From: Candidatus Brevefilum sp.
Lineage (GTDB): Bacteria > Chloroflexota > Anaerolineae > Anaerolineales > Anaerolineaceae
Reading direction: 5' to 3'
NCBI GenBank assembly: GCA_029210815.1
Contig: JARGGB010000023.1
Coordinates: forward strand, 1 to 41,360
Length of the DNA: 41,360 nucleotides
Shown: positions 6,721 to 10,827 of the stretch, in pieces
Layout: each line of letters starts with the position of its first letter
Position numbering within the stretch: position 1 is the first letter of the stretch
Program-made: the position numbers and the translations under genes
Notes under the pieces: generated by a model
Databases searched by the model: none
Seen by the model: only the letters and a program-made list of their open reading frames with translations
Told to the model about the DNA's origin: nothing

Positions 6721-6957
6721 TTATTTGTTCTTGTCCATATAGGGCGCAAGACGCTTCACGGTCTTCTTAAGAGATCGGGTCTTGACCGGGATCATTCGCT
6801 CAAACAACATCTTTGTGCGATCGGGTGTCCGTCGGCGAAGGTGGCCTTTACCGATTTTTGTCCGCATGATCTTTCCGGAACCTGTCATCTTGAAGCGTTT
6901 CGAGGTTGCCTTATGGGTCTTCATTTTGAACTTGCCGTCTTTTTGTTTACGTGGCAT
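6721..6957 (-). CDS. rpmI: Large ribosomal subunit protein bL35
   Basis: Ribosomal protein bL35, 78 aa. The core KMKTHKATSKRFKMTGSGKI and the basic run GHLRRRTPDR are typical. The N-terminus carries about ten extra residues (MPRKQKDGKF) compared with the common 64-66-aa form. The start is supported by AGGAG 7 nt upstream. It lies 100 bp after infC and 93 bp before rplT, the conserved order for these genes. Confidence 0.97.
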   Translation of the reverse strand: MPRKQKDGKFKMKTHKATSKRFKMTGSGKIMRTKIGKGHLRRRTPDRTKMLFERMIPVKTRSLKKTVKRLAPYMDKNK

Positions 6958-6980
6958 TCCTAAACTCCTCTCATGAAAAT

Positions 6981-7009
6981 CCTACGGCACATTCTTACAC
7001 AACCGTAGG
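6981..7009 (-). promoter_or_regulatory. Hairpin in the infC-rpmI gap (possible regulatory structure)
   Basis: CCTACGG (6981-6987) pairs with CCGTAGG (7003-7009), a perfect 7-bp stem with a 15-nt loop, directly upstream of the rpmI ribosome binding site in the mRNA. In other bacteria bL20 binds structures in this leader. The position fits such a site, but no specific bL20 motif was recognised. Confidence 0.35.
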
Positions 7010-7057
7010 GCTTTTTCCATTTTATGAACCTGTCTTGTTCTGCAGATTTCTTATCTA

Positions 7058-7573
7058 CTACTTATTCGGAGCAAGCATCATGAACATCGATCGCCCCTCT
7101 AGTTTCGGGGCTTGTTCCACTTCTGAAACATCCGATAATTCTTCCGCGATCTCTCGCAAATCTTCCAGAGCAATTTCTGGGTAGGTGATTTCGCGTCCCC
7201 GGAATCGAATGGTCACTCGAACCTTCATTCCGTCACTCAACCACCGGCGTGCATCCCGGACTTTGAATCCTTTGTGGTGATCGGTCGTTTTTGGGCGCAA
7301 ACGGATCTCTTTGATCTCGATTTTTGTCTGCGATTTCCGTGCTTCTCGTTCTTTCTTTTCCTTCTCGTAAAGAAATTTACTGAAGTTCATAATCCTGGCG
7401 ACCGGTGGGTCAGCGTTTGGAGCGACTTCAACCAGATCAAACCCTGCTTCTTCTGCTCGAGTCAAACCTTCCCGCAGGCTGACAACACCTACATTTTCAC
7501 CATCCTGATCAATTAATCGAATTGATGTTGCACGGATTTGCTTGTTGATCCGAAAATCATCTTTGTTACTTAT
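7058..7573 (-). CDS. infC: Translation initiation factor IF-3 with apparent AUA start
   Basis: Initiation factor IF-3, 171 aa if started at ATA 7573-7571. It binds the 30S subunit, checks start codon-anticodon pairing and prevents early subunit joining. The N-domain begins FRINKQIRATSIRLIDQDG, followed by VGVVSLREGLTRAEEAGFDL, and the C-domain has KEIRLRPKTTDHHKGFKV. The first in-frame canonical start is a TTG at 7465, which would delete most of the N-domain. The only good ribosome binding site, AAGGAG at 7589-7584, lies 10 nt before an in-frame ATA, and no ATG, GTG or TTG is in frame between it and the conserved N-domain. Non-AUG infC starts are known (AUU in E. coli) and allow IF-3 to repress itself. 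The AUA assignment is an inference from the sequence. Confidence 0.93.
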   Translation of the reverse strand: MSNKDDFRINKQIRATSIRLIDQDGENVGVVSLREGLTRAEEAGFDLVEVAPNADPPVARIMNFSKFLYEKEKKEREARKSQTKIEIKEIRLRPKTTDHHKGFKVRDARRWLSDGMKVRVTIRFRGREITYPEIALEDLREIAEELSDVSEVEQAPKLEGRSMFMMLAPNK

Positions 7574-7645
7574 AGTTAACGCTCTCCTTCTGATAAAATC
7601 ATCATGATTAACACAAACATTATTCCCATAAAGGGAACGGACTTC

Positions 7646-7675
7646 ATCTTACCATATATTTGAGGGAATCGTCAA
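7646..7675 (-). promoter_or_regulatory. Promoter of infC-rpmI-rplT
   Basis: Minus-strand TTGACG (7675-7670) and TAAGAT (7651-7646) are 18 bp apart. The leader to the infC start would be about 66 nt and contains a small hairpin (TTCCC with GGGAA, near 7623-7637). This makes infC independent of thrS. Confidence 0.6.
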
Positions 7676-7740
7676 CAGATTCCAGGAAGTTATTGTGTGT
7701 GAATTGCCGGATTCTGCATTATTGCAAAGGTAATGCAACG

Positions 7741-8122
7741 CGATCTGATCTCTCTGGTGTCCTCACCAGAGAGGACCCTATCCGACCTCCTTGGTGCCCC
7801 ACCACCATTATCAAAATATCATCCCGGTGAGACACCGGGAAGATCATAATAAACCCGTCGCTTCCCTGGTGTCCTCACCACCCGATCTCTCTGGTGTCCC
7901 AACATCCGATCTCTCTGGTGTCCTCACCAGAGATCAACTGTATACACCTCAATACCGATCAGTCTTGTGCCCCACCACCATTATCAAGAGAGATGATCCC
8001 GGTGAGACACCGGGATCATCATAAGATACCCACTACCAGATCGCTCTGGTGTCCCCACCAGAGCGAAAACTGATGCAAACACACCTGATCTCCCATCCCA
8101 CTGGTGAAGACACCAGTGGGAT
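7741..8122. repeat. REP-like palindrome cluster, infC side (eight palindromes)
   Basis: Eight palindromes share a core GGTG-TC(C/T)1-2-CACC and differ in their outer arms. Stems and loops: 7750-7759/7764-7773 (10 bp, loop TCCT); 7822-7829/7833-7840 (8 bp); 7867-7871/7876-7880 (short, decayed); one near 7888-7905 with a decayed right arm; 7912-7920/7925-7933 (9 bp); 7992-8004/8008-8020 (13 bp perfect); 8041-8051/8056-8066 (11 bp); 8095-8106/8111-8122 (12 bp perfect). The second, sixth and eighth are inverted relative to the others. An internal 21-bp direct repeat (7794-7814 and 7967-7987, period 173 bp) shows that a larger unit was duplicated. These lie between infC and the 3' end of the RAYT gene, and no gene is seen among them. 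Confidence 0.85.
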
Positions 8123-8167
8123 CATCAAAAACCAGTGTGATTATGAGATCACTGTCAAAACTGTTCG

Positions 8168-8716
8168 CTACTCCTCCTCTTCAATGACCATTGAAATCGG
8201 GATATCCCCTGCTTCTCCATTAATCCAAAATCCCGCTGATGAAAACCGCCAGTGTTCTGGCACTTGCACATACCCCTTACTAACCGGGTTTTGATGAATA
8301 TATTCCACTTTTTGATTTACAAACGCTTCACTCGCCAATCCCTCAGCGTGCCAGCCCGGTATCCAAACCACTCTACTGCGATCCTTCATTGAATTATTTC
8401 GAATCACGCTTGAAATAGATGTGGCAAGATTATTATCGACATAATCTGCCAACTTATGTCCGGTGAATTTTCTGAATTTAGCCAGGGTCTTCTGCAACCG
8501 TGCATTATCAAATTTTGCATCAAAAACCACCAAATGAAGGTGATTGGGCATGATCACATAAGCGTAAACTCTCAGGGACCTCTCATTGATACAAAAATTC
8601 AAACTGTCGGTAATAATATTTAAAGGTTCTGGATTAATGAAAATGGGCAGCCAATCTACCACTGTGAAAGTTACAAAGTAAACGTAAATACCTTCGATGA
8701 ATTTATAGCTGTCCAT
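8168..8716 (-). CDS. REP-associated tyrosine transposase (RAYT, Y1/HUH family)
   Basis: A 182-aa transposase-like protein of the Y1_Tnp/IS200-related family. RAYT enzymes cut and rejoin single-stranded REP palindromes, using a histidine pair to hold the metal and one tyrosine as nucleophile. The HUH motif is H59-L-H61 in YAYVIMPNHLHLVV. The likely catalytic residue is Y139 in KVEYIHQNPVSKGYV, followed by the typical PEHWRFSS. Length and motifs fit a full-length enzyme. It is a single copy without IS ends and is flanked on both sides by palindromes of one family, the arrangement that defines a RAYT. No ribosome binding site is visible before the ATG. It lies inside the thrS-infC interval. The final residues are acidic (IEEEE). 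Confidence 0.88.
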   Translation of the reverse strand: MDSYKFIEGIYVYFVTFTVVDWLPIFINPEPLNIITDSLNFCINERSLRVYAYVIMPNHLHLVVFDAKFDNARLQKTLAKFRKFTGHKLADYVDNNLATSISSVIRNNSMKDRSRVVWIPGWHAEGLASEAFVNQKVEYIHQNPVSKGYVQVPEHWRFSSAGFWINGEAGDIPISMVIEEEE

Positions 8717-8811
8717 GAAATGATTATATATTGAAATTTATTAAACTTTGGGTGGCTAATTACAATCCAAAATGCAAATTTTAGCCTTTGGTGTGACTAG
8801 TGAGATATTAG

Positions 8812-8997
8812 GATGTCGCTGGTGGGACACCACCGACATCTCAGGAAAACCAAGGGTTATCACCATAACATCAAATGATAACAAGAGATCTTCCCGGTGA
8901 GACACCGGGAAGATCTTGAGCTTGTTGATCCTAATGGTATCTGTTAATTTCACTTGTATCTGCTGATCTCACTGGTGGGGACACCAGTGAGATCAGC
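8812..8997. repeat. REP-like palindrome cluster, thrS side (three palindromes)
   Basis: Three further palindromes of the same family, all in the inverted orientation: 8812-8824/8828-8840 (13 bp with one mismatch, loop GGA); 8886-8899/8903-8916 (14 bp perfect, loop AGA); 8962-8977/8982-8997 (16 bp perfect, loop GGGA). They fill the 329-bp gap between the RAYT start and the thrS stop. In transcripts of thrS they would form strong hairpins about 50-230 nt after the stop codon, so they may end or protect the thrS mRNA. Confidence 0.85.
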
Positions 8998-9045
8998 GAA
9001 AATCAATGGTTTAATACTTCCAACTTTATAGCAAAAGTGAAATCT

Positions 9046-10827
9046 CTATCCTTCAACCTTTTCTTCGACATCCTTCACAGCCAACACCTTAAACTCATTC
9101 ACCAGCATGGCGCCAAGGCGCTCGCCGCTTCGTCGACGGATATCCACCTGCCCGTTTTCCATCTCACGATCTCCGACCACGAGCATATAAGGCACCTTCC
9201 GCTTCTCTGCATCACGGATTTTGGCGTTCATTCGGTCGCTTCTATCATCTACCTCAACACGCAAATCCGCTTCCTTAAGCTGTCTGGCAACTTCCTTAGC
9301 AAAATCGACATGGCGGTCAGCAATCGGGATGATCACCGCCTGGGTTGGCGACAGCCATACCGGGAACGCACCGCCGTAATGCTCAATCAACACACCAAAA
9401 AAACGCTCGATACTGCCTAAAAGTGCCCGGTGGATCATATATGGCCTGTAAGCCTGGCCATCCTCTTCAATGTAAGTCATGTCAAAGCGTTCGGGGTTAT
9501 TGAAGTCAAATTGGATCGTCGATAGCTGCCATTCCCTGCCTAATGCATCTTTGACCTTCAAATCAATCTTCGGCCCATAGAAAGCACCGCCCCCTTCATC
9601 AACATGGTAGGGCAATTCTGCCCGCTTAAGAGATTGTTCCAATGCTGCCTCAGCATCTACCCAACGCTGTGGATCGCCAACAGCTTTTTCAGGGCGCGTG
9701 CTCAAATAAGCCTCAATTTCCTGGAAGCCAAAGGCGCGCAGCATATTCAGACTGAAAGACAGCACAAAATCTATCTCTCCTGGCATCTGCGCAGGGGTGC
9801 AGAAGTGATGTGCATCATCTTGTGTAAAGCCCCGCACGCGCAGCAGGCCGTGCATCACGCCGCTGCGCTCATAACGATAAACCGTGCCTTTTTCAGCATA
9901 GCGCAGGGGCAAATCACGGTAGGATCGAATGTCCGATTTGTAAACCTCAATGTGGAAGGGGCAGTTCATCGGCTTGAGATAATACTTCTGATCTTCAATC
10001 TCAATCGGGGCATACATGTTCTCAGCATAATAATCAAGGTGCCCGCTGGTTTTCCACAAATCAGCCTTCCCGATATGGGGCGTATACACAAAATCATAAC
10101 CATTTTTCAGGTGCTGATCTTCCCAAAACCGTTCTACCAAAAAGCGAACCTTAGCGCCGTTGGGATGCCACAGAACCAGCCCTGAACCGACGTTGTCACT
10201 GACGCTGTAAAGGTCAAGTTCCTTTCCAAGCTTGCGATGATCGCGTTTCTTGGCTTCCTCTAACTTCCACAAATATTGCTTCAGATCTTTGGGTGATAGC
10301 CAGGCGGTTCCATAGATCCGCTGAAGCATGGGATTATGCTCATCACCGCGCCAGTATGCGCCAGCAACATTCATCAATTTGATCGCCTTGGGATGGATCT
10401 TGCCCGTGCTCTCTAAGTGCGGTCCACGGCACAGGTCGACAAATGCATCGCTCTTATAAATCGTGATGACCTCTTTCTCATCAACAGGGTCACCGTGCTC
10501 ATCAACATCACCCTTTTCAAGGCCCTCAATCAGCTCGAGTTTATAGGGCTGATCCGCAAAGATTTCCCTCGCTTGCTCAGCTGAAACCTCTTCTCGGACG
10601 AATTCGCTGTCACTTTTAATGATCTCCCGCATCCGATCTTCGATTTCCTCCAGATCTTCTGGGGTCAAAGGTCTGGGGAGATCAAAATCGTAATAGAAAC
10701 CATCCTCAATAGGTGGACCTATTGCGACTTTTCCTTCCGGGAATTTTTCGAGCACTGCCTGTGCCATCACATGGGCAGCAGAGTGGCGTAACCGAAATAA
10801 TTTTGATTCTTCATAATTTTCTGCCAT
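9046..10827 (-). CDS. thrS: Threonine--tRNA ligase lacking the TGS domain
   Basis: Threonyl-tRNA synthetase, 593 aa, which charges tRNA-Thr using ATP. It starts directly with the editing domain (H15 and H19 in RHSAAHVMAQ; C133 and H137 in DLCRGPH), so the N-terminal TGS domain of the usual enzyme of about 640 aa is absent. The class II catalytic core shows the zinc ligands in PMNCPFHIEVY, DDAHHFCTP and MIHRALLGSIERF. The C-terminal anticodon-binding domain begins near VWLSPTQAVIIPIADRH. The start is firm: GGAGGAGG lies just upstream and a T-box leader before it leaves no space for a longer protein. A short acidic insert (EKGDVDEHGDPVDEKE) precedes the editing cysteine. Control is by the upstream T-box. 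Confidence 0.97.
   Translation of the reverse strand: MAENYEESKLFRLRHSAAHVMAQAVLEKFPEGKVAIGPPIEDGFYYDFDLPRPLTPEDLEEIEDRMREIIKSDSEFVREEVSAEQAREIFADQPYKLELIEGLEKGDVDEHGDPVDEKEVITIYKSDAFVDLCRGPHLESTGKIHPKAIKLMNVAGAYWRGDEHNPMLQRIYGTAWLSPKDLKQYLWKLEEAKKRDHRKLGKELDLYSVSDNVGSGLVLWHPNGAKVRFLVERFWEDQHLKNGYDFVYTPHIGKADLWKTSGHLDYYAENMYAPIEIEDQKYYLKPMNCPFHIEVYKSDIRSYRDLPLRYAEKGTVYRYERSGVMHGLLRVRGFTQDDAHHFCTPAQMPGEIDFVLSFSLNMLRAFGFQEIEAYLSTRPEKAVGDPQRWVDAEAALEQSLKRAELPYHVDEGGGAFYGPKIDLKVKDALGREWQLSTIQFDFNNPERFDMTYIEEDGQAYRPYMIHRALLGSIERFFGVLIEHYGGAFPVWLSPTQAVIIPIADRHVDFAKEVARQLKEADLRVEVDDRSDRMNAKIRDAEKRKVPYMLVVGDREMENGQVDIRRRSGERLGAMLVNEFKVLAVKDVEEKVEG

Follow-up and report, generated by a model that had tools for sequence, protein, structure and literature searches.

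In the described systems, RAYT genes are always flanked by two inverted REPs, which show complementary changes and a GT(A/G)G head, the RAYT and REP trees match, and REPs usually occur in more than 100 copies per genome (PMC2817692; this and the following publications are cited from portions of their text). RAYT-like genes and REPs outside the gammaproteobacteria have already been published (PMC3733652, PMC6006769). PMC3733652 distinguishes GTAG and CGTC tags and describes GTAG REPs in Chloroflexi, with GTAG-23 in T. roseum; its main text contains no word beginning with GATC. PMC6006769 assigns GT[AG]G to five TnpAY1 subclasses and CnGA to class 3, and describes atypical hairpins in subclass 2.6. 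In the portions consulted of the literature on RAYTs and REPs, including PMC2817692, PMC3733652, PMC6006769, PMC8266576 and PMC8049555, we met no REP with a G-N-T foot.

Here we describe a RAYT locus from the window, the 41,360-nucleotide stretch of DNA that was analyzed, whose arrangement is known from other bacteria; here, the foot differs from GT[AG]G and varies in step with the RAYT tree. Compared with the canonical gammaproteobacterial REPtrons (E. coli TnpAREP, Stenotrophomonas RAYTs; PMC2817692 and PMC8266576, in the portions cited), the locus is alike in its HUH/Y1 enzyme with the fold of PDB entry 4er8, its short footed hairpins, the inverted REPs around the gene, compensatory arm changes, REP pairs, and copies elsewhere in the genome. 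It is unlike them in its G-N-T foot instead of GT[AG]G, in the replacement of E100, H101, and R104, in the small number of copies, and in the lack of a Pfam match. As described, TnpAY1 subclass 2.6 also consists of RAYT-like genes with atypical, GT[AG]G-free hairpins on their flanks; it is mostly from Bacteroidetes (PMC6006769), and many of the relatives found here are Bacteroidota. Class 3 TnpAY1 genes are also RAYT-like and hairpin-flanked without GT[AG]G but have a CnGA foot (PMC6006769), and the Chloroflexi GTAG REPs come from the same phylum but carry the GTAG tag (PMC3733652). The features of the locus are as follows.

7058-7573, minus strand: infC, with a probable AUA start codon at 7573-7571 (from the translation; CTATA conserved in 14 of 14 genomes)
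7646-7675, minus strand: infC promoter TTGACG-N18-TAAGAT, outside the array (consensus-scan match; conserved in 14 of 14 genomes)
7747-7773, plus strand: REP, foot GATC, core GGTG-TCCT-CACC (footed-pattern match, fold z-score)
7817-7845, minus strand: REP, foot GATC, core GGTG-TCT-CACC; inverted partner of the 7747 copy in a REPIN-like pair
7868-7879, plus strand: degenerate core GGTG-TCCT-CACC with no foot and almost no arms
7908-7933, plus strand: REP, foot GATC, core GGTG-TCCT-CACC
7992-8020, minus strand: REP, foot GATG, core GGTG-TCT-CACC; inverted partner of the 7908 copy
8039-8066, plus strand: REP, foot GATC, core GGTG-TCCC-CACC
8094-8123, minus strand: REP, foot GATC, core GGTG-TCTT-CACC; inverted partner of the 8039 copy
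8168-8716, minus strand: RAYT (TnpAREP-like Y1 HUH transposase) gene, 182 amino acids (NF047646, fold match, dN/dS)
8812-8840, minus strand: REP upstream of the RAYT gene, foot GATG, core GGTG-TCC-CACC
8887-8915, minus strand: REP upstream of the RAYT gene, foot GATC, core GGTG-TCT-CACC
8965-8994, minus strand: REP upstream of the RAYT gene, foot GATC, core GGTG-TCCC-CACC
9046-10827, minus strand: thrS, the upstream neighbor (ORF list; 97% identical in L041)

The window protein matched the NCBIfam equivalog model NF047646 (REP-associated tyrosine transposase) with an E-value of 2.6e-26 and 92.3 bits, compared to a curated cut-off of 80. In a Pfam search no family matched at E-values up to 10, and Pfam01797, the domain by which RAYTs were retrieved in the cited part of PMC2817692, was thus not found; the fold match was nonetheless clear. 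The entry 4er8, E. coli TnpAREP bound to a REP hairpin, gave only a weak match in a PDB search by sequence (E-value 0.017) but was the best PDB match (E-value 6.3e-8) of an AlphaFold model with a mean pLDDT of 87.3 built from 24 sequences, followed by ISDra2 and IS200/IS608-type TnpA. A PHROGs search returned weak matches only, none with a function. The HUH residues H59 and H61 were present in all 38 aligned RAYT proteins, the window protein included, and Y139 and N143 in all 36 that are long enough to reach them. With an HUH motif, a catalytic tyrosine, and an asparagine four residues later, the protein has the features that characterize RAYT/TnpAREP, and on this sequence evidence we classify it as a RAYT. 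The model match and the conserved residues bear out the first-pass annotation, which had proposed a full-length HUH/Y1 protein with H59, H61, and Y139. The Chloroflexota host that it had proposed is supported by the three closest named relatives, all Anaerolineaceae MAGs. T. roseum, a Thermomicrobium, belongs to the Chloroflexota as well.

Exact GGTGTCY(N)CACC cores were found at seven positions downstream of the RAYT gene (7756, 7826, 7868, 7917, 8001, 8048, and 8103) and three upstream (8821, 8896, and 8974), and nowhere else in the 41-kb window. An earlier count of three upstream palindromes was thus correct, whereas that of at least eight downstream is reached only if a degenerate half copy at 7888 is included. 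A GAT foot is located 9 nt 5′ of the core in nine of the ten copies, the exception being 7868, and the nine footed copies had z-scores between −3.1 and −9.8 when folded as single-stranded DNA. The array contains both orientations, and the gene is flanked by inverted hairpins of one family, as is characteristic of a REPtron. Two inverted REPs about 100 bp apart, the arrangement that defines a REPIN, were found in the pairs 7747/7845, 7908/8020, and 8039/8123 and in a pair on contig C37 of the same genome.

In the whole genome, GGTGTCY(N)CACC occurred at 27 sites and the reversed pattern at none. GAT stood exactly 9 nt before GGTG at 18 of the 27 sites, while about 0.8 would be expected by chance for G[AT]T, equal base frequencies assumed. 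The core alone was rejected as a REP signature, as 9 of the 27 sites lack the foot; eight of these nine, all but the one on C39, were inspected, and seven paired at most two of five arm positions, the site at C16:5655 pairing all five. The footed pattern added seven sites of a second subtype, GGTC-TCCY-GACC, resulting in 25 footed sites compared to 0 for the reversed control. The further palindromes that had been sought elsewhere in the genome are therefore present, and together with the array they confirm the earlier view of a RAYT amid its own palindrome family in a REPtron layout. The GGTG..CACC core previously regarded as common to this family was found in the ten window copies but marks one subtype only, and the foot had been overlooked; more widely shared are the G-N-T foot, a GGT[C/G] stem top, and a TCY(N) loop, to which many relatives add a 1-nt bulge. 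The footed window copies carry GATC or GATG and not the canonical GT[AG]G, and copy numbers stay below the more than 100 of classic abundant REPs, with 25 footed sites in the own genome and a maximum of 64 (G078) among 147 family genomes. We file these elements as REP-like, with a foot that is not canonical, and place them outside the GTAG superfamily.

The second subtype, G(A/T)TGGTTCA-GGTC-TCCY-GACC, was found at its seven sites on contigs C22, C25, C52, and C72 of the own genome (G000; L103, L104, L105, L109 to L112) and never on the contig of the RAYT gene. On C52, a stretch of several hundred bases was duplicated along with its REP. A longer hairpin-like element with inner letters resembling GCGT(A/C)GCC(T)TCCTGTAA is common to two places in the genome (L090, 1130-1190 and 1440-1500, the two copies separated by a run of N; L106, 1365-1410).

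The arms are not part of the search pattern, which is limited to foot and core, so their pairing could be tested independently; for this test, the 3′ arms were re-dealt in 1000 shuffles. In 17 distinct GGTG copies of the own genome, 86 of 102 arm positions were paired (shuffled mean 49.3, maximum 67), and in nine copies of L041/G026 it was 48 of 54 (mean 25.0, maximum 42). In 15 distinct GGTC-type copies from the family, 89 of 90 positions were paired when one 3′ base was bulged (mean 78.4, maximum 86), but only 16 of 90 without the bulge. Four of the seven copy subsets remained within the shuffled range: the GGTG copies and the GGTC copies of further congeners, a set of five GGTG copies from the family, and five own GGTC copies that are nearly identical. 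Comparison of the window with L041 showed one hairpin with both arms changed in a compensatory manner, from ATCTTCCC/GGGAAGAT to ATAATCCC/GGGATTAT. The hairpins are maintained, and their arms covary.

Association with RAYTs was analyzed in a family sample of 147 genomes, of which 44 had any RAYT-like match (E-value up to 1e-5) and 18 a close RAYT (E-value up to 1e-30). The footed pattern gave 642 matches in these genomes and the reversed control 75. At least five footed copies were present in 16 of the 18 genomes with a close RAYT, whose median was 18, but in only 12 of 128 without one (Fisher p 4.5e-12; G128, with a RAYT fragment at a contig end, was excluded from this comparison). Two of the 18 had no footed copies, and the 12 held up to 31 (e.g., 31 in G075 and 26 in G083). 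Such REP-rich genomes without a close RAYT may be explained by draft assemblies, lost genes, or another enzyme; they are also what would be expected if the palindromes had nothing to do with the RAYT and adjoined it by chance. The positions of the copies relative to the gene speak against such a coincidence. At 15 of the 18 loci L113 to L130, the exact pattern was found within about 1.5 kb of the RAYT gene, the remaining loci being L126, where the gene is cut by the contig end, L128, and L129, and at 11 distant RAYT loci (L131 to L141) the tagged pattern was not found within 1.5 kb.

From a larger group of Anaerolineae genomes, 396 served as the class sample; 39 of them contained RAYTs with E-values up to 1e-20, and the flanks of 20 of these RAYT genes were taken. 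The exact pattern was present in 4 of the 20. A relaxed, foot-blind hairpin scan revealed the same architecture at 13 of the 14 loci L181 to L194, with feet G-C-T or G-T-T; all but L181 also had a 1-nt bulge. A single copy was present at L184 and at L187, whereas L185 had nine on each side. The relaxed scan found no such architecture at L182, L195, L199, and L200, and L196 to L198 carry a different hairpin. Palindromes were thus found near RAYT homologues in relatives, both at L113 to L130 and class-wide, and the outcome that the first-pass annotation had named as refuting its reading did not occur.

Among GG-topped hairpins found without regard to the foot, G-N-T was present at the 5′ foot in 19 of 23 own, 47 of 53 family (L113 to L130), and 54 of 54 class hairpins (L181 to L195), compared to 8 of 23, 4 of 53, and 13 of 54 on the mirrored 3′ side; the foot is directional. 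Outside the own genome it was mostly unpaired, and parts of it were often paired in the own copies. With the foot widened from G[AT]T to G-N-T after the relaxed class scan had been examined, footed hairpins were found within 700 bp at 29 of 38 RAYT loci, at 27 of which the cores were GGT[CG]; the nine loci without one included two, L182 and L195, from within the footed part of the tree. The nearest upstream hairpin was on the strand of the gene at 24 of 24 loci and the nearest downstream hairpin on the opposite strand at 19 of 26, counts that are not independent trials, the loci being related by descent. In the window, unlike most loci, the nearest downstream hairpin is on the gene's own strand. 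Chance neighborhood is already contradicted by these locus and orientation counts, and its probability is practically nil.

Other RAYTs had other hairpins. The more distant RAYTs at L196, L197, and L198 were flanked by CCCACGC-TCY-GCGTGGG, of which the L197 scan showed up to eight copies, and those at L199 and L200, 35 to 37% identical, by a further hairpin family whose tops read GCAG(T)..(A)CTGC. RAYT relatives from Armatimonadota, Cloacimonadota, and Bacteroidota (L044, L045, L055, L058, L059, and L060) had repeated hairpins of their own near the gene; in many of these the tetraloop consists of pyrimidines, or of purines when read in reverse.

infC was found in 14 congeneric genomes, and in three of these a RAYT gene is located between thrS and infC: that of the window, G026 (L041; RAYT 81% and ThrS 97% identical), and G028 (67%), the latter being two of the 13 others. 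Between window and L041, dS was 0.40 for RAYT and 0.53 for thrS, and dN/dS was 0.24 and 0.03, respectively. As the dS values are close, the two RAYT genes are, judged by their sequences, most likely common by descent. A single origin of the thrS-infC insertion in the window, L113, and L115 was not recovered by the tree and not rejected by the AU test (p 0.075). The distance from the RAYT stop to the infC start was 594 bp in the window and 441 bp in L041, the 153-bp difference being located in REP pairs. The C37 pair was common to the own genome and G026, one of two REPs at C16 was absent from the aligned G026 site, and the C3 REP was also absent, a 31-base gap coinciding with the hairpin though the rest of the spacer had diverged. 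REPs thus differ in copy number and presence between two related species, differences in which gain and loss are indistinguishable. A clean insertion at C22 was considered and rejected, as the flanks were too diverged from G026 to align.

An ordinary IS200-like insertion sequence, in which the gene and inverted terminal hairpins move as one unit, would also have inverted hairpins at its ends, as seen at most RAYT loci, and would account for the finding that RAYT and infC are on different contigs in G017, G024, and G025. However, the own genome has a single close RAYT copy, the next homologue being only 27% identical, and gene-free hairpin copies elsewhere; moreover, the protein is named by the RAYT model, and the same site was kept in window and L041, with the dS of RAYT near that of thrS. 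An insertion sequence of this kind is therefore highly improbable.

The first-pass annotation had assumed that the element splits a translation cluster at a cost and might have been domesticated for mRNA processing or termination. The assumed cost is not supported: the infC promoter TTGACG...TATGGTAA(G/T)AT was kept in 14 of 14 congeneric genomes while the sequence above it varied, and four congeners (G018, G020, G023, and G029) have genes other than thrS in the 1.5 kb upstream of infC. As infC keeps its promoter below the array, the array appears to lie outside the infC transcription unit. Hairpins acting as terminators or processing elements of thrS/infC, served by a domesticated RAYT, would fit the observations that all array hairpins are intergenic and would be transcribed with thrS or RAYT, that the site is occupied by a RAYT in two congeners too, and that a terminator scan of 6900-9300 gave 5 sites compared to 1.7 expected. 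Two of these sites are REPs with weak T runs, and they are the only loose matches to an intrinsic terminator (GC hairpin plus T run) among the ten hairpins, their T runs being interrupted; the other eight gave no match. Further arguments against this function are the conserved promoter, the fact that infC does not need the RAYT, since only two of the 13 other infC-bearing genomes hold one there, and the occurrence of the tagged pattern at other RAYT loci and in both orientations. In view of the promoter and the poor terminators, we regard domestication as quite unlikely.

At the infC start, a Shine-Dalgarno-like AGGAG, which varies in G025, comes before a CTATA that is conserved in 14 of 14 congeneric genomes; this points to an AUA start at 7571-7573 on the minus strand of the window; the ORF list places the start at an internal TTG. 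This is reminiscent of E. coli infC, which starts with AUU. In G017 and G025 (L154 and L155), the thrS-infC gap holds other open reading frames, of 122 and 267 amino acids; the former presumably resembles DUF559. The gap may be a permissive insertion site.

Given the protein family with its conserved catalytic residues, the covarying arms, the directional foot, the fixed orientation of the hairpins to the gene, and the association across genomes, the locus very probably works as a REPtron, in which the RAYT acts on the REP hairpins. The HUH/Y1 enzyme would bind single-stranded, folded REPs, which it would recognize by their 5′ G-N-T foot, their irregular stem, and their TCY(N) loop, and would cut them with Y139. 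Acting in trans, it would copy or rearrange REPs and inverted REP pairs at a low rate, so that they would spread mostly near its own gene and to a few intergenic sites.

With "no foot" as a state, the second foot letter required 8 changes on the RAYT tree compared to a shuffled mean of 22.0, a clustering that by itself is expected by descent. In E. coli, W94, Q95, E100, H101, and R104 are GTAG-contact residues or conserved neighbors (PMC6006769, in the portion cited). With the register taken from the sequence alignment with 4er8, the W94 position was invariant and Q95 kept in 32 of the 38 aligned RAYTs, the window protein included, whereas the positions of the GTAG-contact residues E100, H101, and R104 never held E, H, and R, respectively; instead, A, P, or S was found at E100, E in 24 of 38 at H101, and varied residues at R104. 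Columns 33, 152, 131, and 103 were most informative on the foot letter but were not accepted as foot-specific contacts, as they may only follow phylogeny. We consider it as likely as not that the RAYTs and REPs of Anaerolineae form a superfamily marked by a G-N-T(C/G) foot, in which the second letter of the foot (A, T, or C) was re-specified several times together with the enzyme.

The G-N-T feet found across the class widen the range of REP feet, and searches for GT[AG]G would miss them. Knowledge of what a RAYT reads in a REP and of how the cut site is chosen rests on few GTAG systems, and the guide rule was tested on the Marinomonas REPtron Mb (PMC8266576, in the portion cited). The class-wide set, with its variable foot and changed contact residues, supplies naturally occurring substitutions at the presumed cleavage-guiding position. 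If the foot was indeed re-specified together with the enzyme, the guide rule would predict cuts at GA, GT, CA, or CG instead of CT, and the clade would represent a natural series of guide re-specification.
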